DNA of 57,875 nt from a virus: IMG/VR virus record IMGVR_UViG_3300008459_000051, positions 1 to 57,875 of that record, one strand, 5' to 3'. Made by a program: the position numbers and the translations under genes. Shown piece after piece: positions 6,293-46,620 of this stretch (the stretch's first letter is position 1; the number at the start of each line of letters is the position of its first letter). Below the pieces are notes generated by a model, which worked only from the letters and a program-made list of their open reading frames with translations, did not search any database and had not been told where the DNA came from.

Positions 6293-6368
6293 GCCCACAT
6301 AGCTCAGTTGGTAGAGCCGCTGCCTTGTAAACAGCAGGTCGCCCGTTCGATTCGGGCTGTGGGCTCCA
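6293..6368 (+). tRNA. tRNA-Thr (anticodon TGT)
   Basis: The cloverleaf has acceptor stem GCCCACA (6293-6299) paired with TGTGGGC (6358-6364), discriminator T and an encoded CCA (6366-6368). It also has a standard D-arm (GCTC...GAGC), anticodon loop CTTGTAA with anticodon TGT (6326-6328), and a T-arm containing GTTCGATTC. The top pair of the anticodon stem is a C-A mismatch. It reads ACA codons (and probably other ACN by wobble). Its position directly after a protein gene suggests processing from the early transcript. Confidence 0.93.
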
Positions 6369-23720: not shown

Positions 23721-23794
23721 TGGTGGAGCGAGCGGGATTTGAACCCGCAAAACCGCCGTGCAAGGGCAGCAGTTTACCGTTAGCTTATCGCCCC
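23721..23794 (-). tRNA. tRNA-Ala (anticodon TGC)
   Basis: On the minus strand the acceptor stem GGGGCGA pairs with TCGCTCC and includes a G3-U70 pair, the key identity element of alanine tRNAs. The anticodon arm is CTGCC-CTTGCAC-GGCGG with anticodon TGC (23762-23760). The T-arm is GCGGG-TTCAAAT-CCCGC, discriminator A, and CCA is encoded (23723-23721). The D-stem has one mismatch. It reads GCA codons and others by wobble. It is located among late genes, immediately after the endolysin gene. Confidence 0.93.
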
Positions 23795-43414: not shown

Positions 43415-43720
43415 TTAGATCAGGGGCTCCAAGTACACGCCCTGCTCCAGAATACGCCGAACGCCCTCATGGCCATAGGAGCCGATGGAGACGATGGTGC
43501 CAGCCGGCAGCGTGGTGATCTGCCCAAACAGGCTCACGCGGCAGTCCTCAACCACGACCCACTTGGACGGGAGCACAACAGCGGCCTCTTCTTGCTCTTC
43601 CACGCTGCTAGGAAGCACCTCGGCCTCAACCAGCTGCGCCTCTTCGGGAGCGGCGAACTCTTCCACAGCCTCAATGGCTGCGGGGGCGTCCTGCTCAACC
43701 TCTTTGCGCTTGCGTGCCAT
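43415..43720 (-). CDS. Acidic head protein/decoration candidate, 101 aa
   Basis: AAGGA precedes the ATG. The N-terminal half is a basic start (MARKRKEVEQD) followed by a very acidic Ala/Glu/Val stretch (AAIEAVEEFAAPEEAQLVEA). The C-terminal half is a small beta domain (WVVVEDCRVSLFGQITTLPA, then TIVSIGSYGHEG). This is the first protein gene after the structured spacer downstream of the capsid gene. Its role is probably in the head or neck. Confidence 0.65.
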   Translation of the reverse strand: MARKRKEVEQDAPAAIEAVEEFAAPEEAQLVEAEVLPSSVEEQEEAAVVLPSKWVVVEDCRVSLFGQITTLPAGTIVSIGSYGHEGVRRILEQGVYLEPLI

Positions 43721-43737
43721 GCTAAATCCTTAGCCCC

Positions 43738-44148
43738 TCTCAGGGGAAAAGCGGCGCGGGGCTGGTCATACAAGGGCGCTCAATTAACCAGGGTAGCTGA
43801 CCCCGTGACAGTAGTAGAGCTCCCAACAGACCAGCCCCGCAGACAAAGCTGATAGGACGGACGACGAGCCATAAAGGCGAGCGAGTCCTATCACCGCAGG
43901 GTGGGGCGATCCATGACGCAACAGCGTCAGGAGTTGCCCCGAAAGCCAGGCAGCAAAGGCCCGGCACAAACCGGCTGCATACAAAGGCCCACCACAGGTG
44001 AGCAGCAAGCCGGCATTCGGCCAAGGTGGCTCCCGAAGGAGCCGCACATAAACCCACATCGCGGGTGGCCGAAGCTGTGTTCCTATGAACCTGAGAGGCG
44101 CCCGCTTGTGGTTCAGGCAGGGCGCCTCTCAGTCTATCCGATCAAGGG
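43738..44148 (-). ncRNA. Candidate large structured RNA downstream of the capsid gene
   Basis: No credible gene fills this roughly 410-base gap in an otherwise tightly packed operon. It can fold into many perfect helices: an 11-bp stem 44093-44103/44120-44130 whose loop (44110-44115) pairs with 44086-44091 (H-type pseudoknot); 44016-44023/44066-44073; 44028-44033/44038-44043 (UUCG loop on minus); 44053-44057/44061-44065; 43971-43978 with 44002-44005 and 44010-44013; 43945-43951/43959-43965; 43903-43907/43936-43940 around 43915-43919/43924-43928; 43850-43858/43885-43893; and 12 bp 43756-43767/43829-43840. Two helices have G-U pairs on minus that would be A-C mismatches on plus, so the minus strand, co-directional with the operon, is favoured. 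Function unknown. Confidence 0.6.
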
Positions 44149-44149
44149 G

Positions 44150-45559
44150 CTACTCGCCGCCCATCACAACCACGAACCGCTTAAAGCGTGCAGCGTCACC
44201 CGTGGTGGCGTCCGTGCGAACCGGCCAGTCACCGATGAACTTCCAGCTGGTCGAAACCAGATCCTGGAGGCGGTTCAGGGGCGAACGGAGGATCAGCTGG
44301 ATGCGGTCGGTGAAGACCTCAATGCTGTTGTTCGTCACGCGGGGCTCGCCAACCTTGCCGGTGATGCCAGCGTCGGTCATCAGGCCCGACAGATCCTGGT
44401 GGTACTCGTAGATACCGCCCTGACCGGTGAACAGTGCGCGGTGAACCTTGACGCCGGCAGTGGTGCCGTCGTTGTAGAGCTCGCCTGCGAACGGATCGTC
44501 CTGCGTGAAGGTGGCCGTGTCGCCGCCCTCGACGGTCTCGGGAACCGGGCACTCCGAGTTACGGAAGAACACGGTGTTGAGCAGCTCGCCCAGCGCAAAC
44601 TGACGGTACATGTAGTAGTCAGGCAGCGAGGTGAGCAGCTGGCGCCATTCCTGATCCGCGAACACCTGAGCCTGCGAGGTCGGGTCAAGGTGGCAGTGGA
44701 AGCGACCGTCAGCGTGTTCCGGCACGTTCTGCTGCCAGAAGCGAGCAACGGCAGCGCGAATGTCCGACAGCTTCAGGATGTCGTTGGAGCCGATGTCGTC
44801 AACGCTGTTGCCGCCACCGACGCGCACGACGTAGGAGCGGTCTGCGCTGTAGACGTAGCCACGATCCAGCACGGTCACTGCGCCACCCGTCAGGGTGATG
44901 GTGCCGGGGCCGGTCTCGTCGCCAGCAACGTCAGGCGAGAAACCGACAACCGAACGCACAACCGGAGCTGCGAGGCCGCTGTCGTAGATGGTCACGAGCA
45001 GGGGGTTGTTGGTCGAGACGTAGTCGAAACGAACCGGCGAGCCAGTTGCGAGATCCGGGCGGCGTGCGCGGGTGAAGCCGTTGAGGCGCTTCACGCGCAG
45101 GGTGGTCACGGCAGCCTGGTTGCCATCGGCAACGGTCCAGCCCGACTCAGCCGCGTTGTACATGCGGTCACGAACGATACGGTTCATGGCCTGACCGGCG
45201 CTCATACCCAGCTGGTGGGCGTTACGCAGGAACAGGTTGGCAATAGCCGTGATGCTCGTCGGCATGTGGGTGTCGATGCTGTCAGCGTACTGCTGAAGCG
45301 TCGCGGTCCACTGCTCGGCAGCGTAGGTCGAAGGAGCCGGATCAGATCCCGGCTGGAGCGGGCGCATCTTCGGGCGAACAAGGCCCGTGCCCGTGAAGAC
45401 CATGCTGTCACCGATGTTGGCAGGCCACACCTGGGGGGTCGCCTCGCCACGGAACAGCAGCCGGGGGAACAGAGCGTCGTGGAACGCACGCTCAAGGATG
45501 TTTTCCTGCACAAGCGCCCGGATCTCGGGCGTCTGGAGGATCGTGGAAAAATCTGCCAT
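44150..45559 (-). CDS. Major capsid protein, 469 aa
   Basis: GGAGATGACTG precedes the ATG. The N-terminal helix (TPEIRALVQENILERAFHDA) and the segment FPRLLFRGEATPQVWPANIG are typical of HK97-fold capsid proteins of myoviruses. The core has MNRIVRDRMYNAAESGW, SPVRFDYVSTNNPLLVTIYD and a C-terminal segment with FTDRIQLILRSPLNRLQDLV. The scaffold-like gene lies directly upstream. No prohead protease gene was recognised nearby. It assembles the icosahedral shell. Immediately downstream is the structured spacer. Confidence 0.88.
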   Translation of the reverse strand: MADFSTILQTPEIRALVQENILERAFHDALFPRLLFRGEATPQVWPANIGDSMVFTGTGLVRPKMRPLQPGSDPAPSTYAAEQWTATLQQYADSIDTHMPTSITAIANLFLRNAHQLGMSAGQAMNRIVRDRMYNAAESGWTVADGNQAAVTTLRVKRLNGFTRARRPDLATGSPVRFDYVSTNNPLLVTIYDSGLAAPVVRSVVGFSPDVAGDETGPGTITLTGGAVTVLDRGYVYSADRSYVVRVGGGNSVDDIGSNDILKLSDIRAAVARFWQQNVPEHADGRFHCHLDPTSQAQVFADQEWRQLLTSLPDYYMYRQFALGELLNTVFFRNSECPVPETVEGGDTATFTQDDPFAGELYNDGTTAGVKVHRALFTGQGGIYEYHQDLSGLMTDAGITGKVGEPRVTNNSIEVFTDRIQLILRSPLNRLQDLVSTSWKFIGDWPVRTDATTGDAARFKRFVVVMGGE

Positions 45560-45613
45560 CAGTCATCTCCGTTCAAGTTGGGCGCATCATGCAGCCAACC
45601 GCGTTTTCAGTCA

Positions 45614-46468
45614 CTAGATGGTCGGGGCGAATCCCCGCGACCGCATCAACTTCTGGAACTCTTCCTGGCTCATGCTGCGAGCATCCATTCGACCCGCTGC
45701 GCCCTGAGCCGCCTGCACGCTGCCAGCCTTGGGAGCGGATGGGGCCGCGCCAACGCCAGTACCAGTGGTGGCAGGCACCACAAGCTCACCGAAGAGGTAC
45801 GGGTGCGACTGCCGAAGACCACCAAAGAACTTGGTCTCGTCAAACGACGCCAGTGCCTTCTCGTCCTTGCCTTCAAGTTCCCGCTGGATCAGCCGCAGGG
45901 CGTAGTCCACGTCCTTGACACCATTGGAGACTGCCGTTTCGCGCAGTGCGAACTCAGCTTCCTTGGCCTCAAGAGTACGCTGGAGCTTACGGCGCTGTGC
46001 CTGTTCAGCTGCGAACTGCTTTGCCAGCTTCTCCCGCTCACGCTGGAGTCGCTGCATCTGCTTGGCTGCATCGTTCTGAGCCTGCGGCTGTGCAGCGGTT
46101 TGCACCTCTTCATCCGCATAGAACTCAGGCTCTGCTGCCTTCTGCACCGGAGCTGCCTTGGCCGGCGCAGGCTTGGCCGTGTTGGCCTTAGCTGCCGCCA
46201 TGGCTGCGATGGCGTCATCAATGCTCGAAAAACCAGCGGCCTTGAACTTGGCCTCCAGCTCCGTCACTGCTTCACGCTTACCGCGCTGCCGCTGCTCTTC
46301 CTTCAGCTTGCCAATGGCGTGCTGGGGAAGGATGACGTTCTTGCCGCCCGCAATAGTGGGCAGTCCCGGTTCTGCTGCTGCCTCGATGGCTGGAGCCTCG
46401 ACGACAGGAGTCACTTCCGCCACGGGGGCGTCAGTAACCGGATTCAACTGATTGTTCTCTTCCTGCAT
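45614..46468 (-). CDS. Scaffolding protein, 284 aa
   Basis: The protein is Ala/Glu/Gln-rich and largely alpha-helical. It has an acidic Pro/Val-rich N-terminus (VAEVTPVVEAPAIEAAAEPG), long coiled coil (KQMQRLQREREKLAKQFAAE, QRRKLQRTLEAKEAEFALR) and a C-terminal tail (SQEEFQKLMRSRGFAPTI). This composition and location directly before the capsid gene are typical of phage scaffolds that guide procapsid assembly and then exit. GAGAGAAGGAGAG lies before the ATG. Confidence 0.8.
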   Translation of the reverse strand: MQEENNQLNPVTDAPVAEVTPVVEAPAIEAAAEPGLPTIAGGKNVILPQHAIGKLKEEQRQRGKREAVTELEAKFKAAGFSSIDDAIAAMAAAKANTAKPAPAKAAPVQKAAEPEFYADEEVQTAAQPQAQNDAAKQMQRLQREREKLAKQFAAEQAQRRKLQRTLEAKEAEFALRETAVSNGVKDVDYALRLIQRELEGKDEKALASFDETKFFGGLRQSHPYLFGELVVPATTGTGVGAAPSAPKAGSVQAAQGAAGRMDARSMSQEEFQKLMRSRGFAPTI

Positions 46469-46620
46469 ACCGCTCTCCTTCTCTCGCCTTTCCGACTATT
46501 CACCGCCGTCGTAAGCGTGGTGACGGTCGAAGTGCGAGCTTCTGCTGGGAATGACTAAACGGGCCGTGTCCCGCTAGTCGGTGAACTGCAAAACGCACAC
46601 GGGCGGAAACGAGGTAGTGC

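Follow-up and report, generated by a model that had tools for sequence, protein, structure and literature searches.

A putative large structured RNA between the capsid and neck genes of a family of uncultured contractile-tailed phages

The capsid-g101 junction

The window analysed here is the whole 57,875-nucleotide stretch of IMG/VR virus record IMGVR_UViG_3300008459_000051 (positions 1 to 57,875). Its minus strand carries a tightly spaced series of genes in the order scaffold, major capsid, g101, g135, g182, g177, g239, and tail sheath. The major capsid gene (44150..45559, minus strand) encodes a 469-aa protein that matches the PHROG major head protein (4.3e-13) and is 30% identical to the capsid protein of Streptomyces phage Kromp; the gene downstream of it, g101 (43415..43720, minus strand), encodes 101 aa and is conserved in the family. 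With the capsid ORF ending at 44150 and the g101 ORF beginning with an ATG at 43720, the 429 nt that separate them (43721-44149, minus strand) are the sole wide break in the scaffold-to-sheath gene series.

The initial annotation had described this gap between the capsid and neck genes as lacking a credible gene, and both its position and its coding status proved to be right. The gap contains ORFs of 105 and 91 aa, but both acquire 1-nt indels and stops in relatives, in which spacer substitutions are spread evenly across codon positions; on these grounds they are not regarded as genes, and a coding reading of the spacer was rejected. No promoter-like site was found near the RNA in the window. 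On the plus strand, an 885-aa open frame (43901-46558) runs antisense to the capsid and scaffold genes and to a portion of the RNA; it probably arises from GC-rich codon use.

The minus strand of the spacer has a minimum free energy of -214.7 kcal/mol, compared with -171.2 +/- 6.0 kcal/mol for dinucleotide shuffles (z -7.3), and the plus strand reaches z -8.8. Capsid-coding stretches of equal length from twenty relatives, used as a control, mostly gave z values above -3.

Architecture of the RNA in the window

The predicted RNA (43721..44149, minus strand, as are all parts named below) extends from the capsid stop to the g101 start codon and holds no conserved ORF. Its 5' hairpin, P1 (44091..44132), recognized in the alignment and in folds, stands right behind the capsid stop, and the sequence of its stem varies freely among relatives while the pairing is kept. 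It is followed by P2 (44016..44073), a three-way element found in folds of the window and of two near relatives (L007 and L073), which includes P2a (44053-44065) and the cUUCGg-capped hairpin P2b (44028-44043); by P3 (43971..44013), a stem around an invariant CACCTGTGGTGG hairpin, the outer stem of which covaries; and by P4 (43945..43965), a hairpin (GCCGGGC...GCCTGGC) seen in folds and compensated in relatives. P5 (43903..43940), located with the covariance model R1, is a family-wide signature with the canonical form GC-AAA-CCC-hairpin-U-GG-AACC-GC, and is diverged in the clade of the window. P6 (43851..43892) is a 42-nt hairpin (GATAGGACTCGCTCGCC..GTCCTATC) that is nearly invariant and confined to the near clade defined below.

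The P7 module (43756..43840) consists of a 12-bp outer stem (43756-43767 with 43829-43840), an inner stem (43817-43824 with 43774-43781), and the hairpin P7c (43789-43805), in the loop of which CAG (43797-43799) pairs with CTG (43809-43811) to form a conserved H-type pseudoknot (43797..43811). A 3' tail (43718..43755) contains a U run, a small hairpin, and a Shine-Dalgarno-like AAGGA before the g101 ATG.

Both the 12-bp stem and the cUUCGg hairpin of the initial annotation are thus present, as P7 (a conserved module) and P2b, respectively. The 11-bp stem with a 6-bp pseudoknot that it had also described is P1: the loop TGAACC can pair with GGTTCA just 3' of it (44079-44115), and this is kept in the near-identical L002, in which one pair has become G-U, but it has no counterpart in L004, L005, L007, or L073. 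The conserved H-type pseudoknot is a different one, inside P7.

Covariation and strand in the near clade

Searching IMG/VR with the capsid yielded 80 loci. Those whose capsid reaches 85% identity or more to that of the window form one clade on the capsid tree, here called the near clade. Full spacers come from L002, L004, L005, L007, and L073 (L087 repeats L073), and those of L003 and L006 are broken off by the contig end. The near-clade spacers are mutually 71-82% identical, with L002 being virtually identical to the window, and their last 340 nt can be aligned. The consensus fold has 96 predicted pairs, 27 of which show a double compensatory change, and P3, P4, P5, P6, and P7 reappear in single-sequence folds of near-clade members.

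That G-U pairs on one strand stand where the other would have A-C mismatches had been taken as a sign of transcription in the late-gene direction. Near-clade comparison bears this out, with 27 G-U cells against 4 A-C cells on the late-gene strand and a consensus energy of -133.8 on the minus strand, better than the -125.0 on the other; the corresponding counts in the distant P5 set (8 G-U against 14 A-C) are uninformative for strand.

An additional 5' module of about 100 nt with a GNRA-capped hairpin (GGCTAGGTGCGAAAGCACTCCTC) is found in L003:5408-5605, L004:5408-5600, and L005:2898-3090, and is missing from the window, L007, and L073. Because it occurs in L004, L005, and the partial L003, the 5' part of the RNA is modular. 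Patterns based on P6 and on CACCTGTGGTGG found no true match outside the near clade (nhmmer run on the relatives' loci).

The P5 module in distant relatives

In relatives down to approximately 43% capsid identity, a structured non-coding spacer of 300-670 nt occupies the same place, and at capsid identities of 55-79% the capsid-g101 junction mostly holds 300-670 nt without a conserved gene. These distant spacers, bounded by automatic gene starts, have z values of -4 to -11 in most cases and of about -1 in a few; a long spacer need not always mean an RNA, since some of them (for example, L037, L047, and L062) fold hardly better than chance and lack a clear P5 or P7. The sequences are barely alignable but share a GCAAACCC-hairpin-TGGAACCGC motif; this motif and cUUCGg (55 occurrences against 10 expected) are the most strongly enriched words. 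Two modules are common to the distant relatives and the clade of the window, namely P5, with its covarying stems, and P7.

Covariation in P5 was measured on 29 different sequences with the window clade left out; the search pattern partly fixes the letters of the motif and leaves the flanking stems free. Paired cells amount to 90.4%, compared with 67.3% after shuffling (none of 500 shuffles was as high), both sides have changed in 10 of 14 pairs, and the covariation score is 0.532 against 0.124, the outer and inner stems both covarying strongly. Run over the whole window, R1 gives a single match, which falls exactly on P5 (43894-43949, minus strand; 12.5 bits, E 0.45), and the diverged P5 of the window is joined to the family through L073 (E 1e-8) and L007 (E 8e-7), two members of its clade with clear R1 matches.

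The P7 module and its conserved pseudoknot

The terminal element of most RNA-bearing members is a stem of 10-18 bp around an inner stem plus a small hairpin, the loop of which pairs with a triplet just upstream in an H-type pseudoknot. The pairing triplets switch among members (CCC/GGG, CTG/CAG, CCG/CGG, CGG/CCG, and CGC/GCG), both within the near clade, with CTG/CAG in the window and L004 and CCG/CGG in L005, L007, and L073, and between L076 and L077, which are about 92% identical and have CGG/CCG swapped to CCG/CGG. Since the MAFFT alignment misplaced the P7 helices, the module was assessed by hand-parsed helices with permutation and, hand parsing being biased toward pairing, also by an automatic descriptor.

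All three pseudoknot pairs are present in 24 of 24 hand-parsed sequences, with six different pair sets; this amounts to 72 of 72 pairs, against a mean of 56 and a maximum of 66 in 2000 shuffles of the loops. Similarly, the inner stem is paired in 88 of 88 cases, against 41 after shuffling (maximum 56). The descriptor recovered P7 in 18 of 39 spacers, with a mean of 1.2 and a maximum of 4 in shuffled spacers, 3 on the reverse complement, and none in 38 capsid coding sequences. The window escapes it, its P7 inner stem being broken after the first four pairs. Further plausible cases came up in L012, L040, and L051. The distance from P7 to the U run is 7-11 nt in most RNA-bearing members; in L076-L080 a 12-bp stem leads straight into 8-9 U, and in the window no U run lies directly behind the stem. 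A kissing interaction between the AACC of P5 and a GGUU of P7 was considered and dropped because the GGUU side is not conserved.

Distribution, loss, and inserted genes

Scanning 2.9 million viral contigs (IMG/VR) for the P5 pattern, blind to gene context, returned 40 matches, which stand for approximately 29 distinct sequences because several contigs are near-duplicates. In 39 of them the match lies downstream of the capsid gene of this family, on the same strand and about 175-805 nt away; in the 40th the contig ends on the capsid side and g135 lies downstream. Among 84,980 genomes of bacteria and archaea the same pattern matched six times, and these look like chance matches since no capsid gene is nearby and several fit only the inner part of the model. 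No matching sequence was found in annotated phages and plasmids. The carriers, namely the window and dozens of its relatives, belong to one family of uncultured contractile-tailed phages, in which each whole record has one copy of the RNA; in three long contigs whose spacer is short, no copy lies elsewhere.

When presence, scored by a long spacer, is placed on a capsid tree of 80 proteins, the RNA is found in 48 loci and missing in 18, the presences being clustered and at least five changes being required. Ancestral presence followed by several losses is probable, although gains are also possible. The initial annotation had named related phages as the place to look for conserved helices and covariation, and both were found there; several lineages have lost the RNA, which accordingly is not essential to the phage family. 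Loci without it have a spacer of roughly 60-150 nt, mostly with one terminator-like hairpin. A loose test finds such a hairpin with a U-rich tail in 12 of 17 RNA-less lineages, about nine of which are convincing by eye, and this suggests that control of transcription is a common need at the junction. In Kromp and phiKX1, annotated phages with distant capsid homology, the gap at that junction is at most 58 nt.

HNH endonuclease genes lie within the capsid-g101 locus in L067:3906-4526, L069:5462-6712, L075:5419-6168, and L013:5826-6218, and in L075 the HNH gene is adjoined by a dCTP deaminase-like gene (L075:6184-6705; Pfam DCD 1.5e-33). The HNH gene in L067 and both genes in L075 stand between the capsid gene and the P5 RNA, which is on the g101 side; hence, its place does not depend on the capsid stop codon, and the junction is a landing site for HNH-type genes, with the P5 RNA persisting beside the insertions. 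Elsewhere in the cluster, g121, a small gene upstream of the scaffold gene, is tandemly duplicated in L011, L013, L030, and L038.

Comparison with known RNAs

The RNA had been thought to belong to no known class, and an Rfam scan of the window and 15 relatives agrees, as no family matches. In particular, the GOLLD and ROOL covariance models give nothing above the gathering score in these sequences and nothing up to E 5 in the spacers of the window, L044, and L034; ARAGORN and Rfam detect no tRNA or tmRNA in the spacer, the tRNAs of the window (6293-6368 and 23721-23794) being about 20 kb or more from the RNA; and no group I or group II intron core is matched by Rfam in the window or the relatives. 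Known RNA families were therefore rejected as its identity, and no earlier description of this RNA was found in the open full-text literature. Mu-gpT-DE, a structured RNA motif that follows a phage head gene, gives no match at the Rfam thresholds in either the window or the 15 relatives.

To our knowledge, only a handful of large structured phage RNAs have been described, and GOLLD, ROOL, and similar RNAs are without a settled function. The spacer RNA has the traits of such ornate phage RNAs (an extensive covarying fold, a pseudoknot, non-coding status, and carriage by a phage).

GOLLD is a large ornate phage RNA of unsettled function that rises during lysis and is dispensable (PMC12286853; PMC7567579). 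Its 3' part is conserved and its 5' part less so (PMC12286853; PMC7567579), as in the spacer RNA, but it lies near tRNA islands and is often longer than 800 nt, whereas the spacer RNA lies between capsid and neck genes. ROOL is a large phage RNA with pseudoknots that is very abundant, non-essential, and without a known protein partner (PMC12286853); it resembles the spacer RNA in size class and in having a pseudoknot and differs from it in gene context and in the lack of a model match. In phage ICP1, large ORF-less gaps give rise to the most abundant phage transcript, which is non-coding (PMC7567579). This likeness to the spacer RNA is one of description, and the ICP1 gap is at the lysis cluster.

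Interpretation

The comparisons above indicate that the spacer is a real RNA structure, non-coding, folded on the late-gene strand, and kept by compensatory change, in agreement with the large structured RNA originally proposed from the single sequence (z -7.3; covariation in the near clade, P5, and P7). Judged from the same alignments and distribution, this RNA is modular, with a variable 5' part and a conserved 3' part that includes P5 and P7, and it is position-locked at the capsid-g101 junction and evolutionarily dispensable.

Our preferred reading, to which we assign a probability of about 0.5, is that it represents a new class of large structured phage RNA, co-transcribed with the capsid gene and acting in trans as an independent folded RNA in the manner of GOLLD and ROOL. 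It would be transcribed within the scaffold-capsid late transcript, and that it rides on the capsid transcript is suggested by the lack of a promoter-like site nearby. Cleavage at the long terminal stems P1 and P7, together with a partial stop at the U run, would yield an abundant separate RNA that may work as a folded RNA or as an RNA-protein particle, with the P7 pseudoknot and the internal loop of P5, which is invariant, as candidate docking sites. An independent RNA or RNP is favoured by the size, the invariant internal loop, and the pseudoknot, as for GOLLD and ROOL, and a 400-670-nt fold with invariant internal loops would seem to exceed by far what an attenuator or an mRNA cap needs. 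Against a trans-acting RNA stand its constant adjacency to g101, which a free RNA would not need, and the lineages that lost it and mostly have a terminator-like hairpin in its stead, as well as the divergence of P5 in the window (12.5 bits, E 0.45).

The main rival, which we consider possible though doubtful, is a cis element of the late operon, with the RNA closing the capsid mRNA and forming the leader of the neck-gene message. Such an element would slow or stop the polymerase and block 3' nucleases, keeping capsid levels high and neck proteins low, and P7 with the U run beside the g101 ribosome site may tune g101 translation. The place of the RNA is fixed between the capsid and the low-copy neck genes in all members, a strong P1 hairpin immediately follows the capsid stop, a U run lies 3' of P7 (in L076-L080 the stem runs directly into it), and terminator-like hairpins with U-rich tails replace the RNA in most relatives without it. 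Yet a simple hairpin is enough in those lineages, and 400-670 nt with an invariant P5 loop and a conserved pseudoknot is excessive for this role; the distance between P7 and the U run in most members is ill suited to intrinsic termination; the g101 Shine-Dalgarno showed no conserved base pairing; and L067 and L075 carry genes between the capsid gene and the RNA.

The head genes on either side raise another thought. The packaging RNA (pRNA) of phage phi29, with a core of about 120 nt, acts at a phage structural stage, and the spacer RNA shares with it an association with head genes. An RNA that reaches the procapsid or portal as a part of the motor or of head assembly, like pRNA, would explain the strict adjacency to capsid and head-completion genes, and its expression would parallel that of the head proteins; but the spacer RNA is far larger, differs in fold, has no Rfam match, and is lost in several lineages that retain the same head genes, and the P5-P7 kissing interaction failed. 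We therefore regard this as unlikely. A broader variant, in which the capsid-operon RNA of this large family of tailed phages is unrelated to pRNA, GOLLD, or ROOL and either builds a cage of RNA only or itself takes part in assembling the head or packaging the DNA, is improbable rather than far-fetched. A selfish or intron-like RNA with HNH endonucleases as its mobility genes, to which the four HNH-bearing loci might point, is very unlikely: HNH genes occur in those four loci only, no group I or II intron is matched, the RNA interrupts no reading frame and sits between complete ORFs at all loci, no other locus was found, and presence is clustered on the capsid tree. Least credible is a packaging or recombination site at the DNA level, with palindromes that merely resemble RNA helices; the good folding on both strands would fit it, but the 27:4 excess of G-U over A-C on one strand of the near clade, the better consensus energy there, the RNA-type cUUCGg tetraloops, and the constant orientation to transcription speak against it.

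The spacer RNA is as elaborate as the GOLLD- and ROOL-type RNAs, has a clean covariance signal, and is widespread in one uncultured phage family. Its adjacency to the capsid gene, unlike the position of other large phage RNAs, gives a direct hint at function; its repeated loss provides natural knock-outs; and with P5 and P7 as signatures, finding and testing it should be easy.
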